A DNA stretch of 41,602 nt, from NCBI GenBank assembly GCA_007127095.1, contig SKZY01000271.1, forward strand, positions 1 through 41,602, in the 5' to 3' direction. Below are positions 27,536 through 39,987 of the stretch, in pieces. The stretch comes from Planctomycetaceae bacterium. Lineage in GTDB: Bacteria > Planctomycetota > Planctomycetia > Pirellulales > Pirellulaceae. The notes below the pieces were generated by a model. That model was given only the letters and a program-made list of their open reading frames with translations, was not told the DNA's origin and searched no databases. A program made the position numbers and the translations under genes. Positions within the stretch are counted from its first letter, which is position 1. Every line of letters begins with the position of its first letter.

Positions 27536-28186
27536 TCACTGCAGTTCCGGGAAGACTCCGCTGTCGAGCCCGGCACGAGCCAGCGTGTGCTTCATCCGGA
27601 TCAGGAAATCGCTTTTGTAGTTCGCGACCTGTTGTTCGCTCAAACCGGTCTGCCGGGCGACTTCGCGGTTGGAGGTCCCGGTGACGAACAGCGATTCGAC
27701 GCACCGCAATTTGGTCCAGTCGCCGCGTTGCTTCCAGCGGGCCACCGTCTCCGCGATCGCCGCGGCGATCGCCGTTTCTTCCAACCGTTTTCGCTCGACG
27801 CTGCGAACGATCGAACTGGCCCCACGGCCACCGAGCAGCCCGGCGAACAAATCGTGCGTCCCGCCGCCCTCGGAATCCCCGCCCGCGTGTCCGGTCTTCA
27901 GATTCGGTCGCCGCCCCGCTCGACGCAACTGGTCGGTGATTTTGTAAGCACAGATCGCGAACAGGTAACTTTCGAGCGGTTGGCGGGAATCATAATTCGG
28001 CAGGCTGGTCAAAAACCCGAGGAAGGTTTCTTGAACGATATCCTCGGCGGCCCCGCGTTCGCCGACTCGCGTTTGCGCGAACGCCAACAACCGTCCCTCG
28101 AACCGGTCGATCAACGCTTGCCAAGCCTCGGCATCACCGGTTCGGACGGAGCTGACCAGCGGGTCTTCGGCATGGTCGGGCGGCAT
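27536..28186 (-). CDS. ECF-type RNA polymerase sigma factor
   Basis: A 216-aa sigma-70-family protein. Region 2 spans about residues 10-85 (DRFEGRLLAFAQTRVG, AEDIVQETFLGFL, SYLFAICAYKITDQLRR) and region 4 is at about 160-210 (CVESLFVTGTSNREVARQTG followed by a recognition helix SEQQVANYKSDFLIRMK). The linker between them is long (about 75 residues) and Gly-rich, which is unusual for ECF factors. The ATG at 28186 is chosen because AGGGGG lies about 8 nt before it and the product begins at region 2; the frame itself is open about 300 nt further upstream. No anti-sigma gene is adjacent. It is divergent from the chaperone cluster with 255 nt between them, so it could control that cluster, but this is not shown. 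Confidence 0.85.
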   Translation of the reverse strand: MPPDHAEDPLVSSVRTGDAEAWQALIDRFEGRLLAFAQTRVGERGAAEDIVQETFLGFLTSLPNYDSRQPLESYLFAICAYKITDQLRRAGRRPNLKTGHAGGDSEGGGTHDLFAGLLGGRGASSIVRSVERKRLEETAIAAAIAETVARWKQRGDWTKLRCVESLFVTGTSNREVARQTGLSEQQVANYKSDFLIRMKHTLARAGLDSGVFPELQ

Positions 28187-28441
28187 CGCGGCGCCCCCTG
28201 CAAAGAACTGAGTAGGAAAGAAGTGACTGCCAGCGGATACAGTACCTTTTCGCTGAAAGGACGCAAACGCAATCCGCGTCCACTGTCCGTCTGAGGCCAC
28301 AACGCTCCGCTCGGAGAAACGAGTGCGGAGGAATCCGCGGAGGCTGTCATATACGATCAATGCCGTTATATTGGCCGGGGTTGCCGCGTTTCGTGGGAGA
28401 AATCGGGGCGGATTTACGGATGATCGGAGCACTGCGGGCCC

Positions 28442-30970
28442 ATGGCAGCCAGAAACAAGAAGAATAAGAAAAAGGCTCGATCCCAAAAGCGGAAACCGGG
28501 GATCTTGGACCGCCTAAGGCTTCGCCGAAAACCTGCGACGCCCGCTGACGATCCGAGTTGGTTGGCGGTCGCGACGAAGGATGAACCGCTCGTCGATGCG
28601 GCGATCATTTCTACCAAGATTCGTCGACAAACGCTTGAGGAGCCGTTGCGGCCGGCCGCGGATGCGGTCGTCAAGGCGTTGGGCTTGGTCGGCGAGGGCA
28701 AAGACGCTGCCGCGATTCAGGCGATTGCCGACATCCCGCGGTCCAGCCCCTATGCTTGCTGGAAACTGTTCGTTCGCGGCCTGGTCGCCTACTATGCGGG
28801 CGAACGGTCTGACGCCGAAGCCAATTGGTCCAAGTTGCCGCCCGAGCGACGACCGGCGCGCATCGCAGCGGTGCTGCTCGCCGACGCAGCGACACCGACC
28901 GCTGACGGCGAGACCGCGAAAGCGGTGGAACGTCTTCAGAAACTGCGACAATTGCGTCCCGCGATGGCTGCGGCTCGCAGAATCGTCGCCGCGGTCCGTC
29001 GCCAGGCTGAGCGAGATCGTGAACGCTGCTTTGGCCCTTCGGACGTCTCTTCGTTAATCGCTTTCCGCGACGATTTTGGGAAGACCGAACCAGACTTTGT
29101 GCGTGACTTTTCTCACGCCTGCGTGATGCTCTGTGTCTCGCAACCCTACAGCGACGTCTTCGACATGGTGATCAGTCGCGTCCCCGGTCCGGCCCACGAC
29201 CCCCGCTGGAACCTGACCGCGTCGAACTATTATCTGCGGTTCCAGGACGGTGACGCCGAGGCCACTCGACGGATCGAAAAGTACCTCCACGAGGACCTCC
29301 CGCGACTGCACCTGCCCGAGGACTTCAAGGCCGCGATCGGTAGCGCCGTCTGGTACGGCCGGGCGAACTCCCGATGGGAGCGTTTCCTGTCGGGCAGAAT
29401 GCTGATTACCGAACCGATCGCCGCCTGCGAAGAAGCGATCCATGCCGATCCCGGCAACCGTCGGCCGCACGAACTGCTGGTCAAAATCTTGTCGTTCGCC
29501 GCCGAAGACGACTCGCTGAATGCGGCGAAACGAAAACTGTACGCCGGTCACGCGACCAACGCCCGCGAGGCCTGGGTGGCAGCGATCCCCGACCAGTTCG
29601 ACCAGCGACTGCTGCTGATCGACCATTTTCTCGATAACGATCAACTGGACGATGCCGAAAGGCACCTGCAGGCGATCGCGGGCCGCCGTAGCGACAATCC
29701 GGCCGTGGCTGCGCTGCCCTGGAAGCTTGAGCTGCGGCGGGCGATGCGGCTGAGCAAACAAAAACGCAATCTCGCCGCCGCGGGTGAGGCGTTGCAGCGA
29801 GCCGCCGAACTGTGGCCTAAATGGCTGCCAGACGCATGGCTGCCTTTCCTCCGTGCCGCCTTGGCCGCCCGTGGTGGCGATCAAGCTGCGGCCGCGCAAA
29901 TCTACGATGAACTGCAACGCAGCGGTCGTTTCGCTCCGGTGACTTTCGATGTCCTTCGCTTCGGCGCCGCTCAGCAGATGAATGTGCCGGCCGACCAGGT
30001 CCGTTCGCTCCGCGCCGCGGTGGAAAAGCATGCCGATGCTCCTACGCGGCTCGACCACGATTCGCTGATCGACCTCGGCGCCGCACTCTGGCACCTACAC
30101 CGCGCCGGTATCCTCTACCGTGGCTATAACCGCCATGCCGCCAAGTTCGGCCGAACCTTCTCCCGGCAACTCGGTCGGCCCAAAAACGCTGCTGACCCGC
30201 AAAAGCTGGTCGAGGCGACGTTTTGGGCAGCCGTCAACGGATTCTGGCGTGAGTTCGACGCAGACACCCTGACTCAGTCCGTACGGGCTACCGAAGCATC
30301 GCCTACTCACTCCGCGATCCTATTGGCTGCTTTCCTCCACGATCACCATCGCCGAAGTCTCGATTACGGCCCGGCAGCCGTCAGATTTGATGAGACGGTG
30401 GAGAAGGTTCGCGCATTGATTCAAAACGAAGCCGACCCTTACTACCGCCACCAATTCGCTGAATGGATTCGCCAAGCCGATGAACTGATCGCCGAACGCC
30501 GCCCGCGGCATCCGTTCATGAGCTTCAGCGATGACTTCGATGACGATGACTTCGACGACGATGACGATGACGACTTCGAGGATGACTTCGACGACGACGA
30601 TGACTTCGATGACGATGACGACTTTGAGGATGGCGCCCTATTCCCGGAAATGGACCAGATGGACGACGAGCTTCTCGACATCCTCTGGGAAGGGTTCGTC
30701 GCCAGCGCGCCGCCCCAGATCCAGCGATTGCTCCGCTCATTGTCCCGAGACGGCCGGGCCGAGTGCATGCAGCAAATCGCCCAAGTCGCACAGGACAATC
30801 GATTTGACCCCGCCGCTTTCATCGAGATTCTTCTAAAATCCGGCGTTCCGCCTGACGAGGTGGTGGCAGCCTTCATCGACGAAGGTACCGATGGGCACCC
30901 AGGCAACGGTCCCGCGGCGGCGAAGGCTGGCCGTAAGAAGCGACCGAAGCGTTCGCCTCGCCGACGATAG
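28442..30970 (+). CDS. Helical-repeat (TPR-like) protein with basic ends and Asp-rich tract, first gene of Hsp70 cluster
   Basis: An 842-aa cytoplasmic protein without signal peptide or membrane segment. The N-terminus is very basic (MAARNKKNKKKARSQKRKP). The bulk (about residues 70-680) is Ala/Leu/Arg-rich helical sequence that looks like degenerate tetratricopeptide-type repeats. At 697-733 there is an almost pure Asp/Phe/Glu tract made of repeated DDDFDD units. A helical domain with an Asp/Glu-rich start follows (LLDILWEGFVASAPPQIQRL), and the protein ends in a second basic tail (KAGRKKRPKRSPRRR). Not recognised as a named family. It is the first of five co-oriented genes, 46 nt before the J-domain-like gene, so a client-binding or scaffold role in the Hsp70 system is a reasonable inference. 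Confidence 0.75.
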   Translation: MAARNKKNKKKARSQKRKPGILDRLRLRRKPATPADDPSWLAVATKDEPLVDAAIISTKIRRQTLEEPLRPAADAVVKALGLVGEGKDAAAIQAIADIPRSSPYACWKLFVRGLVAYYAGERSDAEANWSKLPPERRPARIAAVLLADAATPTADGETAKAVERLQKLRQLRPAMAAARRIVAAVRRQAERDRERCFGPSDVSSLIAFRDDFGKTEPDFVRDFSHACVMLCVSQPYSDVFDMVISRVPGPAHDPRWNLTASNYYLRFQDGDAEATRRIEKYLHEDLPRLHLPEDFKAAIGSAVWYGRANSRWERFLSGRMLITEPIAACEEAIHADPGNRRPHELLVKILSFAAEDDSLNAAKRKLYAGHATNAREAWVAAIPDQFDQRLLLIDHFLDNDQLDDAERHLQAIAGRRSDNPAVAALPWKLELRRAMRLSKQKRNLAAAGEALQRAAELWPKWLPDAWLPFLRAALAARGGDQAAAAQIYDELQRSGRFAPVTFDVLRFGAAQQMNVPADQVRSLRAAVEKHADAPTRLDHDSLIDLGAALWHLHRAGILYRGYNRHAAKFGRTFSRQLGRPKNAADPQKLVEATFWAAVNGFWREFDADTLTQSVRATEASPTHSAILLAAFLHDHHRRSLDYGPAAVRFDETVEKVRALIQNEADPYYRHQFAEWIRQADELIAERRPRHPFMSFSDDFDDDDFDDDDDDDFEDDFDDDDDFDDDDDFEDGALFPEMDQMDDELLDILWEGFVASAPPQIQRLLRSLSRDGRAECMQQIAQVAQDNRFDPAAFIEILLKSGVPPDEVVAAFIDEGTDGHPGNGPAAAKAGRKKRPKRSPRRR
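30526..30640 (+). repeat. Asp codon microsatellite in the TPR-like protein gene
   Basis: A run of GAC/GAT codons interrupted by TTC/TTT and GAG, encoding repeated DDDFDD units (protein residues about 697-733). The mix of GAT and GAC shows that it is not a recent pure expansion, but such tracts can vary in length by slippage. Confidence 0.7.
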
Positions 30971-31016: not shown

Positions 31017-31328
31017 ATGTTTCAGACTTTCGATCTCCGGTCGCTCTACCACCAACTTGGCCTGACCGCCGACGCGTCCGAGGAACAGCTTCGCGCGGCC
31101 TACCTCCAGTTGGTGCAAAAGTACACTCCGGATCGACATCCCGAACGCTTCAATGAAATCCACCGCGCCTACCACCTGCTCACCCACCGCCGTGAACATG
31201 CCGAAACGCTGGTCTCAGCGGCCCCCCAGCCGCCGCCGGACATGAACGCCTTGGTGGACGGAGCGGAAAAGAATCCTCCGCGGTTGACTCCTGGTCAACT
31301 GCTTTCGCTGGGCAATATCAAATCATGA
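31017..31328 (+). CDS. J-domain-like protein with TPD in place of HPD
   Basis: A 103-aa protein. Residues 8-62 match a J domain: LYHQLGLTADASEEQLRAAY (helices I-II), then QKYTPDRHPERFNEIHRAYH and LLTHRREHA (helices III-IV). The invariant His-Pro-Asp, needed to stimulate Hsp70 ATPase, reads Thr-Pro-Asp (T37-P38-D39). The remaining 40 residues are Pro-rich and end PRLTPGQLLSLGNIKS. There is no zinc-finger or substrate-binding domain, so it is not a DnaJ of type A or B. GAAGGT lies 7 nt before the ATG. The stop overlaps the start of the GrpE-like gene (ATGA), so the two are translationally coupled. Confidence 0.8.
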   Translation: MFQTFDLRSLYHQLGLTADASEEQLRAAYLQLVQKYTPDRHPERFNEIHRAYHLLTHRREHAETLVSAAPQPPPDMNALVDGAEKNPPRLTPGQLLSLGNIKS

Positions 31329-32179
31329 ACGATCCCTGGCGCCCCGCCGCCGATACGCCGCCCGCCGACAAGCCGCCCGCCGATTCGTCGCCCGCCGATA
31401 TGCCGCAGGCCGATATGGCGGCTGCCAGACCGTCGGTCGAGGCAGCGTCGGCGGAGCATCAACCTCGGTTCGGAGCGATCGATATCGTCAACGCTTTCGT
31501 CGCCCTGCGGCACGAACTGAAGCTCCAGGTCCGCAACGGCCGCGAAATCCGCGACGCGACCACTGAGCGTCTCGGCCGGCTGGAACATTCCTTTCAGGGC
31601 TTGATTCGCGAAGTCGAGCGATTGGCGGGAGCAACGGCCCAGGCTTCCGCCGGTGATGACTCGGCGCGCTCCATCGCCGAGGCGCTTGCCGAAACCGAGG
31701 AGTCGCTCGATCGAGCCGTCACCGCGCTCGAGCGGACACCGACCGCGGAAGCGTCGCTTCCAGGGATCGACCTCGAATCGCTGCTGGAAACGCGTCGCCG
31801 CGCCTTGCCCCGGTTGCTGCGGCGGTTTGCCAAGTCGTGGTGCCACGAGACGCTCGCAGCCGTCCGATCGGCGGTCCAAGAGCAGCAGCAGGTCCAGGCC
31901 GCCGAGCAGGCCCGGCGGCAGGCGGTTCTCGAAGGATTTTCGCTGCTTCGCGACCGTGTCCGCCGCCTGCTCGTCTCGTCGGGTATCCGCCGGATCGACG
32001 TCGCAGGGACGCCGTTCGACCCCGAGCGGATGAAAGCGCTCGAATCGGTCCGTACCGGGGACTGCCCGCCCGGGCATGTCGCCGAGCAACTGCGCCCCGG
32101 CTACTTGTGGAACGACACCATCCTCCGCTGGGCCGAAGTGCGGATCGAATCCGCAGCCGCCGATCGGCCGTCCCCATGA
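31325..32179 (+). CDS. GrpE-like nucleotide exchange factor
   Basis: A 284-aa protein. The C-terminal 120 residues match GrpE: a long helix (EQQQVQAAEQARRQAVLEGF), then RIDVAGTPFDPERMKALE and PPGHVAEQLRPGYLWNDTI followed by LRWAEVRI, which correspond to the beta-wing domain of GrpE. The N-terminal 160 residues are unlike standard GrpE (about 200 aa in total), with a Pro/Ala/Asp-rich start containing four tandem pentapeptides (residues 11-30) and a helical region. It starts within the stop of the J-domain-like gene (4-bp overlap) and precedes the Hsp70 gene by 112 nt. Expected to release ADP from the Hsp70 encoded next to it. Confidence 0.8.
   Translation: MNDPWRPAADTPPADKPPADSSPADMPQADMAAARPSVEAASAEHQPRFGAIDIVNAFVALRHELKLQVRNGREIRDATTERLGRLEHSFQGLIREVERLAGATAQASAGDDSARSIAEALAETEESLDRAVTALERTPTAEASLPGIDLESLLETRRRALPRLLRRFAKSWCHETLAAVRSAVQEQQQVQAAEQARRQAVLEGFSLLRDRVRRLLVSSGIRRIDVAGTPFDPERMKALESVRTGDCPPGHVAEQLRPGYLWNDTILRWAEVRIESAAADRPSP
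31355..31414 (+). repeat. Four tandem 15-bp repeats in the grpE-like gene
   Basis: Four in-frame 15-bp units, each ending in GCCGAC or GCCGAT and encoding pentapeptides TPPAD, KPPAD, SSPAD and MPQAD at residues 11-30 of the GrpE-like protein. The units diverge gradually, as expected for an old slippage-derived tract in a disordered N-terminal tail. Confidence 0.75.
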
Positions 32180-32291: not shown

Positions 32292-34070
32292 ATGTCCGCC
32301 ATTGACGACTCGCCGATCATCGGCATCGATTTAGGAACTACCAACAGCGTCGTCGCTGCGTATATCGACGGGCGAATTCGGGTTTTGGAAGAACAGGGCA
32401 CAGGTCTGCTGCCCTCGGTCGTCGGCGTTTCGGCCGACGGAAAACTGCTGATCGGCCAAGCGGCCAAGAACCAACTCGTCGCGTTTCCCGAACGGACGCT
32501 GGCCTCGGTCAAGCGTCGGATGGGCGAAGCGGTCAATCTGAAAATGGCCGACGAAGAGTACTCGCCACAGGAAATCAGCGCGATGATTCTCCGCCGGCTC
32601 AAAGACCGCGCCGAACAGGTTCTCGGTCGGCCCGCGACCCGGGCGGTGATCACGGTGCCGGCGTTTTTTGACGAAGGTCAGCGGCAGGCGACACGAGAAG
32701 CGGGCGAATTGGCGGGCCTGACCATCGAACGAATCATCAACGAACCGACCGCCGCCGCACTGGTGTATCATGCCGGCCAAACCGGTCGCCGCCACCTCGT
32801 GATCTACGATCTCGGCGGCGGAACCTTCGATGTATCGATCGTGCGGATGGAAGACGGTGTCGTCGAGGTGCTCAGCAGCAAGGGCGATACGAAACTCGGC
32901 GGCGACGACTTCGATACGCTGTTGATGGAAAACGTCGCCGAACGTTTCTCCTCCGAGCACGGTGTCGACCTGACCGAAAACGCCTCGACCCGTTGGCGAC
33001 TGCTGCAGGCCTGCGAACGTGCCAAACGCGAGCTGTCGCAGCACGCGTTTACCCGAGTCAGCGAAGAATTCATCGCCGAGGTCGACGGCAAGCCGCTGAG
33101 CCTCGATGTCCGTATCGATCGCCATGAATACGAAGAGCTGATCAACCCGTTGGTCGAGCGGACTATCCGCTGCGTCGACGAAGCGCTCAACGACGCCTCG
33201 CTGACCACCTCTCAGATTGACGAACTGATCCTCGTCGGCGGTTCTTCCCGAACGCCGCTGGTCCGCCAGCGCCTGCTGCAGGAACTGCATCACGAAGCCC
33301 ATTGGGCGGTCAATCCCGACCTGGCCGTCGCCTTGGGGGCGGCGACCCAGGCCGCGATGCAATCGGGAGCCTCGGTAGGGCCCGTCCTGGTCGACGTCGC
33401 CACCCACACGCTCGGCATCGAGTGCGCCCGCGGAAGCCGGTTCAATCCGACCATCGGTTACGCACCGATCCTGCACCGCAATTCCCCCCTACCGGCCCGT
33501 CACGAAGACACGTTTTCGACGATGTTCTCCGACCAAGAGGAAGCCGAAATCCGCGTTTTCCAGGGGGAAAGCCCGAATCTGCAATACAACAAGGAACTCG
33601 GCAGCTTTCGCCTCAGCGGGCTGAACAAGTCCGCCGAGGCCGACGGCAGTATCGTCGTCCGCTTCGAACTGACCCTCGACGGGACGCTCAGCGTCACTGC
33701 CGTCGAACGGCTGACGGGAATCACCAAGTCGCTCAAGATTCGCAACGCCCTGACCAGCCAAAGCGAAGCGACACACGACTCAGCCGTCGAACGGCTGGGG
33801 ATGATGTTCTCCGATTCAGACGACGTCGTGGCCTCCGAGGTCGGTGTTTCGGACGCGGGAATCGAGACCGGCGAAGGTCGCGTCGATGGCCCCCACAGCA
33901 CGCTGCTGATGCGAGTCGAGAAAGTCCGCAGCGACGCCTCGGATGAAGACGCGGAGGACATCGACCGTCTGCTGCAAGCGATCGAAGAAGCCGAACAGCG
34001 GGGCGACCAGGAACTCGTCGACTCGATCCGCAGCGAACTTGAAGATCTGCTGTTCTACATCGAAGGCTGA
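32292..34070 (+). CDS. Non-canonical Hsp70 (DnaK family) chaperone with shortened lid
   Basis: A 592-aa Hsp70. The nucleotide-binding domain (about residues 1-370) is complete: GIDLGTTNSVVAAY, AVITVPAFFDEGQRQATREA, INEPTAAALVYH, YDLGGGTFDVSIV, LGGDDFD and LVGGSSRTPLV. The substrate-binding beta domain (about 375-495) follows from THTLGIE and includes VFQGESPNLQYNKELGSF. The C-terminal lid is only about 100 residues and lacks the typical NEDEIQKMVRDAE-like helix; instead there is an acidic spacer and a helical end (DRLLQAIEEAEQRGDQELVD). No EEVD-like or DnaK-type acidic tail is present. The ATG at 32292 has AGGA 8 nt before it. It is probably a paralog specialised for the neighbouring J-domain-like and GrpE-like partners, since housekeeping DnaK is longer and more standard; the housekeeping copy is not in this window. 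Confidence 0.88.
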   Translation: MSAIDDSPIIGIDLGTTNSVVAAYIDGRIRVLEEQGTGLLPSVVGVSADGKLLIGQAAKNQLVAFPERTLASVKRRMGEAVNLKMADEEYSPQEISAMILRRLKDRAEQVLGRPATRAVITVPAFFDEGQRQATREAGELAGLTIERIINEPTAAALVYHAGQTGRRHLVIYDLGGGTFDVSIVRMEDGVVEVLSSKGDTKLGGDDFDTLLMENVAERFSSEHGVDLTENASTRWRLLQACERAKRELSQHAFTRVSEEFIAEVDGKPLSLDVRIDRHEYEELINPLVERTIRCVDEALNDASLTTSQIDELILVGGSSRTPLVRQRLLQELHHEAHWAVNPDLAVALGAATQAAMQSGASVGPVLVDVATHTLGIECARGSRFNPTIGYAPILHRNSPLPARHEDTFSTMFSDQEEAEIRVFQGESPNLQYNKELGSFRLSGLNKSAEADGSIVVRFELTLDGTLSVTAVERLTGITKSLKIRNALTSQSEATHDSAVERLGMMFSDSDDVVASEVGVSDAGIETGEGRVDGPHSTLLMRVEKVRSDASDEDAEDIDRLLQAIEEAEQRGDQELVDSIRSELEDLLFYIEG

Positions 34071-34126: not shown

Positions 34127-34357
34127 ATGACGCCCGAGGATTTCCGATGCCCCGTCTGCCGTGCCCGTCAATCACCGCAGACGCAGTGCCGCCGCTGCGG
34201 CGCCGATCTGACAATGCTGCTACACGCACTCGCATCGCTGCACGCGGCACAGCAAGAACTCGAAGAGGCTCGGAGCCTGAACGATCACTCGCGAGAGCAC
34301 CAGCAACAGCGCTACCTGAACTGGCTGACCGGCGTGAAAAAACGGGACGGGGGTTGA
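34127..34357 (+). CDS. Small zinc-ribbon protein at end of Hsp70 cluster
   Basis: A 76-aa protein with an N-terminal zinc ribbon made of C8, C11 (CPVC) and C21, C24 (CRRC), then a helical, Gln/Glu/Arg-rich C-terminal half (LLHALASLHAAQQELEEARS, SREHQQQRYLNWL). It starts 56 nt after the Hsp70 stop in the same orientation and is followed at once by the BBP7 remnant. Not recognised as a named family. By position it may be a cofactor or targeting subunit of the chaperone cluster; this is inference only. Confidence 0.65.
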   Translation: MTPEDFRCPVCRARQSPQTQCRRCGADLTMLLHALASLHAAQQELEEARSLNDHSREHQQQRYLNWLTGVKKRDGG

Positions 34358-34457: not shown

Positions 34458-34593
34458 CCCTTCAGATCCCGGCATTCGGCGATTAAGGTAGAATGGCTCT
34501 TCGCATTGGCGCGTCCTGGTCCCCGGGGATTCAGCCTCGCCTGGCGCCAAATTGCGAAACCGCCCGTCTGCCCCCCATGCGATTGCCGTTGTT

Positions 34594-37500
34594 GTGAAGT
34601 CATTCCAGTCGCCTCACTTCCGCCGGCGTGGTGGACGCACGTACCGTTTTGAAACACTCGAGTCTCGATGCTTGCTTGCCGCCGACGGTTTTGAAACGAC
34701 AGCGGAGCCGTTGTTCGAGGTGTCGCCAGCCGCGACGGAAAACCCACCTACGCTACGGGTGATCTACGTCAACGATTCGAGTGTCAACGACAGCGGCGAC
34801 TGGACTACGGCACCTGGGGACGATGCCAACGATGGCCTGTCGCCCGCTACACCGATGGCCTCGATCGACGCCGTCCTTCGGTCGTATGAGCTCGGTCCCG
34901 GCGATGTGATCTCGGTAGACGCTGGAGTTTACTCGCTGAGCGAGACCATTGTTCTCGATGCGATCCACTCGGGTGTGACGATTCGCGGCTATGCCGACGC
35001 CTCCCATGCCGACCGAACAGCCCTGCTCGATATTGGCAACCCGTCATTGCCCAGTGCGGTGCTCGAGTTGGCCGGAGCCCAGGATGTTACGGTCGAAAAC
35101 CTAACACTCACCGGTGGCAGACATGGAATCTATGCCGGCGCTGGAGCGGGCAGTCACCGGTTGACGGTACGCGGGACCACGCTGGCCGGTAACGGCTTCT
35201 CTGGCTTGCGACTCGAACAGGGCAATGACCACGTCATCGTGGCAGACAACCGTATCGAAGCCACGCTACCCTCCAGCACCGGACTTCAAAATTTCGGGAC
35301 TGTGATCTGGGGACCACATGCGACGGTAACCGGAAACACAGTCCACGGGCACGGCGGGGCAGGCCTTGTCGTCCGTGACGAAAGCGTGGTGGCACACAAC
35401 TGGATCGAAGGCAACCGATGGGGCATTTCCGTCGATGGAGTGAACACAACGATTCACGACAACAAGGTGATCGGCAACGCTAGCGGCATTCGGAGCCCAA
35501 GCTTGGCTTTGATTACTGACAACCTCATTTATAACAACAGCGAATTTGGCATCGACGGTCGCGGGACCATCCGCGGCAATACAATCCATTCCAATGAAGT
35601 CGGAGTCAATGCTTGGGGGCTGATCACCGACAATCAGATCTACAACAACAACATTGGCATTCTGTCCGAATCCATCGCCGGCACCGGCACGACGGTTAGT
35701 GGCAATCAAATCCACTCCAATCGTTTGGGTGTTGAGATCGCAAAGGGCCGACTGGAATCCAATTTGATTTACGCCAATAACCTGGCGAGCGTGCGGCTGA
35801 CCAACCAAACGGTTCACGTGTACAGCAATACGATCTATCAGGACACCGGTAACGGCGTGGAAGTGTTCGGACAAAGCGCACGATTGGCCGATAATATCCT
35901 GTCAGCGCACGATGGGTTTCCGATTGTCGTCGCCCACGGCGCGACCGACTTAACCAGCGATTACAACCTCTTCGATTCCGGAAACTCCGGGCCCATGGCG
36001 CTCTGGGGTGATCGTGAGTTTGCTGACATCGAGACGTGGATCTATGAATTGGGACAGGACCGCCACAGCATCTTTGGCGATCCTCGGTTTATCGATCCTG
36101 CCGGTCCCGATGGCATCCTCGGCTATGACGCGTCCGGAGCGATCGATGGCAGTTCGGACGATGATTTTCGCCTGCTGCCAGACTCACCGGCTATCGACGC
36201 CGGTACCCCGTCGGCTCCCTTTCTGGAAGAACCGCTGCCCAACGGCGGACGTATCAACCTGGGTGTCTATGGCAACACCGCCTTGGCCACTCCCGGACCA
36301 CAGCAAGCGGTACAAGTGCTCGGACCGGTTGGCTTGGAAAAAGTGACAGTGGGCAAGGAAACACAGATCACTTGGCGAACCTTTGGCCTGGCCGCCGAGC
36401 AACCGGTGGCGTTGATTAACGTCGGCGGTTTGACGGTCGCGGAGTGGTCGAGCGACCCGAATTCTGTGGATAACCATTCATCGTCCCCCGTTGCTATCGA
36501 CGATGCCGTTGATCCGGCGCCCGAAGCGGTTTATCAGTCGCACCGATCTGGCGAACGAATTCAATACCACCTGCCCGTCGCGGATGGCCAATATACGCTT
36601 CGTCTCCATCTCCAGGAACCCTCGCTGACCGCGGTCGTGGGCTCCCGCGTCTCCGATATCGTACTGCAAGGAGAAACGGTTGGTGAAGATTATGACATCC
36701 TTGAGCAAGCCGGTGAGCGACAAACGGCGGTCATCGCAGAGTTTTCGGTCTCCGCCACCGACGGTCAAGGAATCGATCTGGAACTTCAAAGCAAAACCGA
36801 TTGGTTAGCGGTGCTGTCGGGGATCGAATTGCTGCAAGGCAATCCTCAGGGCACCCCATCGCCAACGGTTGACGTGGAATTGTCGGTCGATAACGGTACA
36901 TCCTGGACGACATTGGCCAGCGACGTCCCGCTGGATAACCACGCCCGCGGCAGCTACACCTGGACGCCGGAGGTTTCGACCGAGGGAAACGACGCACTGA
37001 TTCGAATCCGAGCTAACAGCGGTAGCCACCCGGCGGGAACTTCGCGGCGCGCCTTTCAAATCGCCCCCCAAGGCAGTCTCTATTATGTCAATGATGGGAA
37101 TACCAGCGGCGATCAATTCACCACCGCTGGCGGTGACCATCGCAACAGTGGCAAGAGCCCCGACAAGCCGATGGCGAACCTCGCGGCGTTGCTGCGTGCC
37201 TATTCGTTCGATTACGGCGATACGATCTATGTCGACGCTGGCGATTATACACTCTACAGTGATGCGGTCCTGCAGCCCCAGCATAGCGGAGTGCAGATCA
37301 TCGGCGCCGAATCTGCGGTATTGACTCGAGACCAAGTCGCTGTGTCCCATGTGATCCTGCTGCGCAATGCCCACGACGTGACGATCGAAGGCTTAACTCT
37401 CCAAGGCGGTTACATCGGCATTGAGATCGACGGCAGCGAGCGGGCAACGATTCGCGACAATACGATCCTAGAGAGTGATTACGCCGGGATCCACCTGTGG

Positions 37501-39987
37501 CGAGGCAGTCCGCATGCGATCATTCAGGACAATAAGGTTTACGGGCGATCGGATTCCAGCAGTACGGTGATACGGTACGGGATCCGCCTGTGGTCCGCCG
37601 ATGCGACGGTGCTTGGTAATACCGTTTGGGGATTTGACACCGCGGGTGAAGTCGGAATTAGCGTGATCGGTGGTGCGGTCGCTGTCATCAAAAACAACCT
37701 GATCTATGAAAATCATGTCGGCATTGGCGGGGAAGCCGGCACGGATAACGTGGTGCGAGCCAACGATGTACACAGCAACACTATCGGGATCCAATTAATC
37801 AGGCCGACGCAGATCATTGGCAATCACGTTTACAGCAACCATGAGGTTGGAATCGATGCGACCGGTGAGATCCGCGGTAACACCGTCTATGCCAACCCGC
37901 TTGGCATAGACGGCGACGGCTACATTGTTGACAACCGTGTCTTTCATAACGACATCGGAATCATTGCTGGCGAATACCGCCTTTTTACGCAAGCCCTTGG
38001 CAACCGCGTCTACTCCAATCGGATCGGCATCGAGGCTCGCGTGGGAACGTTGGCGAACAACGTGTTGTTTGCCAACACCGAGACCGCCGTCAATGTGTCA
38101 GGCTACGACCTGCGGATACTCAATAACACGATCTACCAAGCCACCGGCAATGCGGTCTCGGTGACCCAGCGCGGTACGCAACTTTATAACAATATCCTCT
38201 CGGTCGGCGATGGCATCGCCTTGGCTATCAGCGATGCTGGCGCGGAGGATTTACAGAGCGATTTTAATTTAATTCATTTGGGCCTTCACTCCAACGCTCG
38301 GGCCGCATTTTGGGACGGTCGAGCGAGGAAAACGCTCGCCGACTGGGTATCAGCCAGCGGCCACGATACGCACAGCCTGCAGGCCGACCCCGCGTTCGTC
38401 GACCCTGTGGGGGCCGACGGCGTGCTGGGCTACGATGCGGCAAGCGACTTCGATGGTGGACGCGATGGCGATTTTTCGCTGCAGCCCCATTCACCGGCCA
38501 TTGACCGCGGGCACAGTTGGTATGGCTGGGGTGTCGACCGGGACGGCAACCCGAGACGGGCCGACACGGGAGTCACGCCTGCCGGATCGCTCGACTACAT
38601 CGCCCAGCCGGTGGACGTGTCGGTGTTTGACCAAGAACCGGTTGGGATAGCCCAGGGATGGCAGGCGGCGGATCAACGCTGGTCGCTGCAATTGCCATTC
38701 GCCTTTCCGCTCTATGACGAGGTTCATACCCACGTCAATGTCAGCAGTAACGGCTTTCTCCAGTTTTGGCCCTTACCGCGTCCGGACGCGCCCCAAAACC
38801 GTGAGGAAAGGCTACCGGTCGCAATCAGCATCGCACCGCTGTGGGCGAACCTACGCACCGATGGCCCAGGGAATGATATTTTTATCGACCAGTCAGTCGC
38901 CGATGGCTATTTCACCGTCCGCTGGCAGGCGACTCATCACGCCGACGGCTCGGAAGTGAATGTTGCAGTCACCCTGTTCCGCGATGGTCGCATGCGGTTT
39001 GACTACGGCAGCGGCAACCAAGTTCTCGCTCCCCTTGTCGGTGTCTCACGTGGCGACGGCAGCAACCATTATCTGGCCCCCTACAGCGGTGCCACAGATC
39101 TTGCCGACGCCCCGTCGCTACTCGTCTCACTTGCTCCGGGCGTCGTCGATATCGGTGCCCATGAGTTCCAAGGCAACAGCTCAATTCCGACACCACCGCG
39201 AGCGGTTTTCGACGCGATCGATACCGCCCGCAATACGGCGGTCGTCGTAGACGTGATGGCCAATGATCTCTTCGAGACAGAACTCGACCGAGAACAACTC
39301 CAGCTGCTGGCGCTCAGCAGCGAAGATGTTTCGATCACAGTAGAGGAGGATGGCCGGTTGCTGATCGAGCCCAATGAGGGCTTCACCGGGACGGTCATGT
39401 TTCAGTACGAGATCACCGACGTCAACGGTCGGACCAGCCATCCGGTTACGTCGCTGATACACGTACGTGAGAATTTGGGACAGAACCGGCATGATCCGGC
39501 CGATGTGCTCAATAACGGCATGGTGACACCGCTCGATGCGCTCTCGATCATCAATACACTCCGCCGTTATCGCAGCGATGGGCCTGGAGGAATCGACGTC
39601 GAATTGCTTCACCAGGCCGGAGCCATGGATGCGGGAAATGGGCCCTTTTATGACGTCAATGGCGACGGGGTGGTCACGCCATTGGATGCGCTGCTGGTCT
39701 TGGTGGCCATCCGCCACGAGCGAAGCGGTACCCCAGCGGGCCTGGGCGGAGCCGTCACTTCGGCCGCCGGGGGCACAGATACTTTCTGGCGCTCCGCCGC
39801 CGTTCCCCCCCGCGACCGGTTGTCGCCGATCAAGCGAGATACCGACATCGAGCAAGCCGAAGAACCGCTGCTCCGGGCGAGGATTTGCCGCCCCCTTTTC
39901 CGTCCGCCTCTCGCCAGTCGGACGGTGCAATCGGCTGCATTTCCGCAACATTCGTCACTTCCCGCACCACTCCTACCAGCCTATTGA
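34594..39987 (+). CDS. Giant exported surface protein: two beta-helix modules, malectin-like, Ig-like and dockerin domains
   Basis: About 1797 aa from a GTG at 34594; a TTG at 34552 would add 14 residues and no ATG is available. The N-terminus carries the planctomycetal export leader, with RRRGGRTYRFETLESRCLLAAD. Counted from 34552, domains in order are: beta-helix module 1 (about 70-580, with YVNDSSVN start and many IYNNxxGI/GNxIHSN coils); malectin-like domain (660-763); Ig-like linker; beta-helix module 2 (about 843-1343), which begins YYVNDGNTSGDQF and repeats the plan of module 1; a nidogen-like beta domain (1349-1533); a bacterial Ig/cadherin-like domain (1551-1640, VVVDVMANDLFETE); and a type I dockerin (about 1643-1726, with GDGVVTPLDALLVL and a degenerate first repeat NNGMVTPLDAL). 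Probably secreted and bound to a cohesin or the cell surface; an adhesin or polysaccharide-active role is inferred. Standing between a BBP7 gene and its remnant. Confidence 0.85.
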   Translation: MKSFQSPHFRRRGGRTYRFETLESRCLLAADGFETTAEPLFEVSPAATENPPTLRVIYVNDSSVNDSGDWTTAPGDDANDGLSPATPMASIDAVLRSYELGPGDVISVDAGVYSLSETIVLDAIHSGVTIRGYADASHADRTALLDIGNPSLPSAVLELAGAQDVTVENLTLTGGRHGIYAGAGAGSHRLTVRGTTLAGNGFSGLRLEQGNDHVIVADNRIEATLPSSTGLQNFGTVIWGPHATVTGNTVHGHGGAGLVVRDESVVAHNWIEGNRWGISVDGVNTTIHDNKVIGNASGIRSPSLALITDNLIYNNSEFGIDGRGTIRGNTIHSNEVGVNAWGLITDNQIYNNNIGILSESIAGTGTTVSGNQIHSNRLGVEIAKGRLESNLIYANNLASVRLTNQTVHVYSNTIYQDTGNGVEVFGQSARLADNILSAHDGFPIVVAHGATDLTSDYNLFDSGNSGPMALWGDREFADIETWIYELGQDRHSIFGDPRFIDPAGPDGILGYDASGAIDGSSDDDFRLLPDSPAIDAGTPSAPFLEEPLPNGGRINLGVYGNTALATPGPQQAVQVLGPVGLEKVTVGKETQITWRTFGLAAEQPVALINVGGLTVAEWSSDPNSVDNHSSSPVAIDDAVDPAPEAVYQSHRSGERIQYHLPVADGQYTLRLHLQEPSLTAVVGSRVSDIVLQGETVGEDYDILEQAGERQTAVIAEFSVSATDGQGIDLELQSKTDWLAVLSGIELLQGNPQGTPSPTVDVELSVDNGTSWTTLASDVPLDNHARGSYTWTPEVSTEGNDALIRIRANSGSHPAGTSRRAFQIAPQGSLYYVNDGNTSGDQFTTAGGDHRNSGKSPDKPMANLAALLRAYSFDYGDTIYVDAGDYTLYSDAVLQPQHSGVQIIGAESAVLTRDQVAVSHVILLRNAHDVTIEGLTLQGGYIGIEIDGSERATIRDNTILESDYAGIHLWRGSPHAIIQDNKVYGRSDSSSTVIRYGIRLWSADATVLGNTVWGFDTAGEVGISVIGGAVAVIKNNLIYENHVGIGGEAGTDNVVRANDVHSNTIGIQLIRPTQIIGNHVYSNHEVGIDATGEIRGNTVYANPLGIDGDGYIVDNRVFHNDIGIIAGEYRLFTQALGNRVYSNRIGIEARVGTLANNVLFANTETAVNVSGYDLRILNNTIYQATGNAVSVTQRGTQLYNNILSVGDGIALAISDAGAEDLQSDFNLIHLGLHSNARAAFWDGRARKTLADWVSASGHDTHSLQADPAFVDPVGADGVLGYDAASDFDGGRDGDFSLQPHSPAIDRGHSWYGWGVDRDGNPRRADTGVTPAGSLDYIAQPVDVSVFDQEPVGIAQGWQAADQRWSLQLPFAFPLYDEVHTHVNVSSNGFLQFWPLPRPDAPQNREERLPVAISIAPLWANLRTDGPGNDIFIDQSVADGYFTVRWQATHHADGSEVNVAVTLFRDGRMRFDYGSGNQVLAPLVGVSRGDGSNHYLAPYSGATDLADAPSLLVSLAPGVVDIGAHEFQGNSSIPTPPRAVFDAIDTARNTAVVVDVMANDLFETELDREQLQLLALSSEDVSITVEEDGRLLIEPNEGFTGTVMFQYEITDVNGRTSHPVTSLIHVRENLGQNRHDPADVLNNGMVTPLDALSIINTLRRYRSDGPGGIDVELLHQAGAMDAGNGPFYDVNGDGVVTPLDALLVLVAIRHERSGTPAGLGGAVTSAAGGTDTFWRSAAVPPRDRLSPIKRDTDIEQAEEPLLRARICRPLFRPPLASRTVQSAAFPQHSSLPAPLLPAY

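Follow-up and report, generated by a model that had tools for sequence, protein, structure and literature searches.

A J-like protein without the HPD histidine, encoded beside GrpE and a diverged Hsp70 in a conserved bacterial cassette

The HPD motif is taught as an indispensable part of J-domain proteins. A 2026 review regards HPE as its only tolerated change and finds other deviations, whether accidental or selected, enigmatic (PMC13254874). Here we analyze a J-like protein that has TPD at this place. It is encoded in a window of 41,602 nucleotides (the whole stretch of DNA studied, contig SKZY01000271.1 of a Planctomycetaceae bacterium assembly, GCA_007127095.1) by the second gene of a five-gene cassette, whose products are, in order, an acidic-tailed TPR protein, the J-like protein, GrpE, Hsp70, and a zinc-ribbon protein.

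The closest known system to this J/Hsp70 pair is DjlB/DjlC with HscC in E. coli, where specialised J proteins likewise go with a diverged Hsp70 of their own; HscC is stimulated by DjlC, which carries HPE, and not by DnaJ (PMC8215388). DjlB and DjlC (L234:1416-1640 and L234:4213-4440) resemble the cassette J proteins in their short loop between helices II and III (theirs reads HPETDPQGF), in Leu at DnaJ position K26, and in Glu at D35, as in 65 of 113 cassette J domains. At R27 they have Ala, where the cassette family has Glu, Ala, or Gln and the window copy Gln. They differ in keeping the His (HPE), in being tail-anchored, and in being about 480 aa long, compared with about 100 aa for the cassette J proteins. 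HscC lacks a GrpE signature, whereas the cassette has its own GrpE and an Hsp70 of a different clade from HscC. As far as sequence can tell, the likeness suggests that short-loop J domains serving diverged Hsp70s form a broader class.

Other described systems share single features with the cassette. The Fe-S pair HscA/HscB is also a dedicated Hsp70-J pair, and HscA has Arg at position 206; unlike the cassette, HscB keeps HPD, there is no GrpE partner, and HscA groups with DnaK in trees, on a long branch. In Myxococcus xanthus a second DnaK, DnaK2, is encoded in one operon with its own GrpE, MXAN_6672, but without a neighbouring J-domain gene (PMC11019930). AtcJ of Shewanella (atcJABC) is, like the cassette J protein, very short and has a C-terminal extension, which in AtcJ binds an operon-encoded partner (PMC6715715); however, AtcJ has a functional J domain with the general DnaK as partner, and its operon encodes AtcA, AtcB, and AtcC but no Hsp70 or GrpE.

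Type IV or pseudo-J proteins, such as Pam16, DnaJB13, and exported JDPs of Plasmodium, have a clear J domain in which HPD is non-conservatively replaced, and by definition 'may not' promote Hsp70 activity (PMC13254874). The cassette J protein fits the sequence part of this definition. These examples are eukaryotic, whereas the cassette J protein is bacterial and, unlike them, co-encoded with a dedicated Hsp70 and GrpE. In Pam16 all of the motif is lost (yeast has DKE), and the protein is paired with an active J protein; in the cassette family, Pro and the acid are invariant. We found no description of the cassette in the open-access literature searched, and an earlier mention elsewhere is possible.

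The J-like protein and its motif

The J-like gene lies at 31017..31328 on the forward strand (ATG at 31017, TGA at 31326-31328) and encodes 103 aa. It was assigned by its match to Pfam DnaJ (39.2 bits, E = 7e-10; curated cut-off 27.8), by alignment with the DnaJ J domain, and by ortholog alignment. A first-pass annotation had reported HPD changed to TPD, and this is confirmed: in the ORF, 31125..31133 (+) reads ACT CCG GAT, giving T37-P38-D39 in a helix II-III loop of Y-T-P-D-R-H-P-E-R-F. The best solved structure for the ortholog profile is the E. coli DnaJ J domain, and the family profile places TPD exactly on its HPD, including in the DnaJ chain of the DnaK complex 5NRO. The same annotation had named an HPD placed elsewhere by alignment as a refuting case, and the 103 aa contain none.

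Its further statement that the J domain otherwise looks intact stands only in part. The J fold and R22 are retained. The loop, however, is 6 residues shorter than that of DnaJ, appearing as a six-residue gap in the profile alignment, and helix II (YLQL, 31101..31112, +) has, by the family alignment, Leu and Gln at K26 and R27, two Hsp70 contacts of DnaJ. An AlphaFold2 model (20 sequences, mean pLDDT 74) contains J-domain helices I, II, and III and two extra helices. The best PDB matches of this model in Foldseek are J domains (probability 1.00, with E-values of 0.016 or weaker, the protein being very small). The helical hairpin and the Pfam match together place the protein in the J-domain fold; with His in none of 113 relatives, it lacks the HPD (HPE tolerated) that marks J-domain proteins of the functional classes A/B/C. 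The C-terminal extension (31212..31325, +), recognized from the ortholog alignment and the model, consists of two predicted helices and has a conserved LLSLGN-type end (31299-31316, +) in the ortholog alignment. In line with the coupling to grpE that had been described, J stop and grpE start overlap by 4 bases (ATGA, 31325..31328, +), and this −4 spacing recurs in many orthologs.

Across the cassette family we compared 113 J domains. Their cores are of 92 distinct kinds and fall into 71 clusters that share less than 80% identity. At position 33 in DnaJ numbering, that of the His, there are 71 Pro, 26 Ser, 14 Thr, one Arg, one Gly, and no His. Position 34 is Pro in 113 of 113 and position 35 is acidic in all (65 Glu and 48 Asp), with Asp in the window copy. 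R22 is likewise kept in every domain and F47 is almost invariant, while K26 has become Leu in 110 of 113, R27 has become Glu, Ala, or Gln, and A29 has become Val. Judged by this alignment, the HPD place in the family begins with a residue other than His, most often Pro, and continues with Pro and an acid (Asp or Glu). Thr as the fixed residue, an outcome the first-pass annotation had raised, is thus not what the family has, and the combination of Thr with Asp occurs in the window copy alone.

The pattern used in our GTDB genome scan was degenerate but admitted only Pro, Thr, or Ser at the His place; since it could not test the frequency of His, the count was redone on motif-independent sets. 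Two sets consisted of J domains encoded next to the TPR protein, one from 13 loci of other planctomycete classes and one from six further Desulfobacterota genomes; a third consisted of J matches found by plain protein similarity in a class-level, protein-anchored search. None of these sets contains a His at the HPD place. With His in 0 of 113 cassette relatives, the orthologs are not mostly HPD proteins, the case that would have marked TPD as a local change. The canonical DnaJs of cassette-bearing genomes do have HPD. We also considered a shifted motif and rejected it: just 24 of 113 domains have His as the fifth loop residue, as TPDRH does, and in eight a His stands one residue before the usual place (HPPD).

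Among related J genes, most of the pairs that are informative have dN/dS of ∼0.04 to 0.2 (for example, dN 0.010 vs. dS 0.253 and dN 0.069 vs. dS 0.939), and the relatives of the J gene are under purifying selection. Together with conservation and gene order, these low ratios bear out the earlier view that the gene is not a pseudogene. On the alignments, the loss of the His in the cassette family is ancient and fixed, and the remaining motif is intact.

Cassette layout and distribution

The first cassette gene (28442..30970, +) encodes an 842-aa TPR solenoid protein with an Asp-rich tract and stands in the same place in orthologs. Its relatives have TPR matches above the cut-off, and AlphaFold2 models it as an all-helical solenoid (mean pLDDT 78). 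A stretch rich in Asp codons (30531-30640) encodes an extended acidic tract close to the protein's end, and many relatives have acidic stretches at the same place. Downstream of the J gene, a GrpE-like nucleotide exchange factor of 284 aa (31325..32179, +) matches Pfam GrpE with 62 bits (cut-off 25.8), and a 592-aa Hsp70 (32292..34070, +; ATG at 32292) matches Pfam HSP70 with 470 bits. The last gene (34127..34357, +) encodes a small zinc-ribbon-like protein of 76 aa (CPVC...CRRC), and almost every complete cassette has it at this position.

The five-gene order is kept in the class-level loci and in nearly all of the 80 GTDB loci whose contig is long enough; the profile does not recognise the TPR gene in a few loci of the Gemmataceae type. 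No second J gene occurs inside the cassette in loci from the GTDB scan. Carriers include Singulisphaera, Zavarzinella, Rhodopirellula, and others in Planctomycetota, Desulfonema, Desulfamplus, and others in Desulfobacterota, and a few MAGs labelled Acetobacteraceae and Acidobacteria. The distribution is patchy: The cassette is absent from a congener of the window genome, and among sampled Desulfobacterota it is present in seven of 297 genomes. PADLOC matched none of the five proteins, and identity as a defence system was rejected.

The window genome has two J-domain genes above the Pfam cut-off, and it encodes one canonical DnaJ, with HPD. Its one main DnaK lies away from the cassette, apparently split across two contigs. 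Sampled cassette genomes have a separate canonical GrpE besides the cassette copy; in the window MAG (∼96% completeness) the cassette GrpE is the sole GrpE seen, and the missing canonical gene is probably a gap. In three genomes (G007, G135, and G076, with loci L060, L062, and L053) the canonical and cassette copies are joined by a third GrpE-like gene.

In Clostridiales bacterium clean1781 (L140:3254-7173, L220, and L225), a J-TPR-like fusion that has PPE where HPD would stand comes after GrpE-Hsp70, and the genome has three such fusion genes; the arrangement resembles the cassette in fused form, here in a different lineage. In the window itself, read by eye, an ORF resembling an ECF-type RNA polymerase sigma factor (27536-28486, −) is divergent from the cassette, and an 1811-aa ORF with parallel-beta-helix-like repeats and a dockerin-like end (34552-39987, +) directly follows it.

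The J-facing surface of the cassette Hsp70

In quick trees the cassette Hsp70s form a single clade (SH-aLRT 98-99) that is distinct from DnaK and HscA and from ten HscCs, which form a separate clade (SH-aLRT 100). The cassette Hsp70 neither groups with DnaK nor has the DVLLLD-type linker of a canonical DnaK. We compared 98 cassette Hsp70s with 30 planctomycete DnaKs in E. coli DnaK numbering. In the DnaK-DnaJ complex, the His of HPD forms a bond with the backbone of L391, the Pro contacts P419, and the Asp forms bonds with R167 and Q378 (PMC8215388). The cassette Hsp70s keep R167, N170, T173, E217, Q378 (91 of 98), L391, D393, and P419. In the linker, D388 is mostly Gly, V389 is Pro, Ala, or Ser, and L392 is Val. 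E206 is replaced by Gln, Arg, Lys, or another residue, with Glu in one of 98; the planctomycete DnaKs have Glu in 24 and Asp in five of 30. Set on the DnaK-DnaJ contact map, the cassette Hsp70 retains the sites for the Pro and the acid, while the linker near the missing His contact is changed. In the window, alignment identifies Arg147 (32730..32732, +) as the conserved R167, partner of the HPD aspartate; Arg185 (32844..32846, +) as E206, a J-contact acid reversed to Arg; and GPVLVDV (33378..33398, +) as the interdomain linker, where DnaK has DVLLLDV.

The suggestion that the partner Hsp70 had co-adapted finds broad support in the linker and in E206, both changed relative to planctomycete DnaKs, while a tie to the His itself is unproven: HscA has Arg at 206 although its partner HscB keeps HPD, so the change at E206 is not specific to loss of the His. 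A published coevolution analysis found moderately strong coupling between J A29 and Hsp70 L392 (PMC5519331); both residues are Val in 80 of 98 cassettes. Two more specific couplings were rejected. A charge swap between J R27 (to Glu) and Hsp70 E206 (to Arg or Gln) meets the same HscA objection, and the pairs track poorly within the family, so the pattern counts as supporting evidence only. Covariation between J position 33 and linker position 389 (P = 1.7e-5, Fisher's test) is confounded by ancestry, and Singulisphaera-type SPD members retain GPVLVD. Since switches among Pro, Ser, and Thr at the His position have no consistent matching linker changes within the family, residue-level coupling of J protein and Hsp70 is unproven.

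Possible roles of the cassette J protein

We give about an even chance to the reading that the J-like protein is the dedicated J cochaperone of a specialised Hsp70 machine, stimulating or gating its ATPase through a re-tuned interface. The fuller proposal, to which we attach slightly less than even weight as a whole, is a natural J/Hsp70 pair in which the ATPase is coupled without the HPD His via a re-written linker, within a new bacterial Hsp70 system besides DnaK, HscA, and HscC that has its own GrpE, TPR, and zinc-ribbon proteins, is widespread in Planctomycetota, and is present in Desulfobacterota. Docking of the J domain on its own Hsp70's linker would involve R22, Pro38, and an Asp39-R167 contact, and ATP hydrolysis would be stimulated or gated without a His bond to the linker backbone. 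With the K26 and R27 contacts also gone, binding to any ordinary Hsp70 would weaken; by analogy with AtcJ, the short C-terminal extension probably ties the J protein to the TPR protein or GrpE, and the high local concentration so gained could make up for the affinity that disappeared together with His, K26, and R27. The cassette GrpE would then reset the cycle, and the TPR protein may supply the client or determine where the machine acts. As a precedent, a J analogue designed without HPD is cited as stimulating Hsc70 (in PMC13254874).

The main rival is a pseudo-J (type IV) recruiter that holds the cassette Hsp70 at the TPR protein or client without stimulating it, hydrolysis being triggered by another J protein such as DnaJ, or by the client. 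We consider this less likely than an active cochaperone but quite possible. None of the Hsp70 systems tested to date was still stimulated once the HPD His had been changed to Gln (PMC8215388), which speaks for a recruiter and against an active J protein, as does the joint loss of His, K26, and R27; the existence of Pam16 and other non-HPD J-like proteins (PMC13254874) also favors a recruiter. Yet a pure tether would have no need of the Pro and acid that are perfectly kept, and a second J protein to trigger hydrolysis is hard to place: The cassette has none, the window genome has a single other one, and the surface of the cassette Hsp70, with E206 lost and the linker changed, no longer suits DnaJ.

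Loss of the catalytic His would also be expected of a negative regulator. Such a protein would sit at the J site of either the cassette Hsp70 or the main DnaK and keep DnaJ from stimulating it, much as Pam16 inhibits Pam18-driven stimulation (PMC13254874). Pam16 works by pairing with an active J protein, however, a partner the cassette lacks, and the presence of GrpE and Hsp70 genes alongside the J gene suggests a productive cycle, so we think this role improbable. Re-use of the J fold away from Hsp70 binding, for instance as a scaffold for the TPR protein, would account for the lost His, K26, and R27 contacts but sits poorly with the strict retention of R22, P34, and D/E35 and the constant linkage to Hsp70 and GrpE; it seems very unlikely. 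A local mutation or decaying gene, which the uniqueness of TPD among the 113 might suggest, is hardly credible given the family-wide absence of His, the intact frame, the grpE overlap, and purifying selection in relatives, and at the family level the ortholog alignment rules it out.

The cassette J protein, which we favor as an active cochaperone, is a natural test of whether the HPD His is truly indispensable. Because the loss is ancient and fixed, the rest of the motif is kept, and the gene lies beside a dedicated Hsp70 whose J-facing parts are altered, the question is directly testable, and the analysis also points to a conserved chaperone cassette beyond the single J protein. Cultured carriers include Singulisphaera acidiphila (L104) and Desulfonema magnum (L074); the latter has seven GrpE-like matches.
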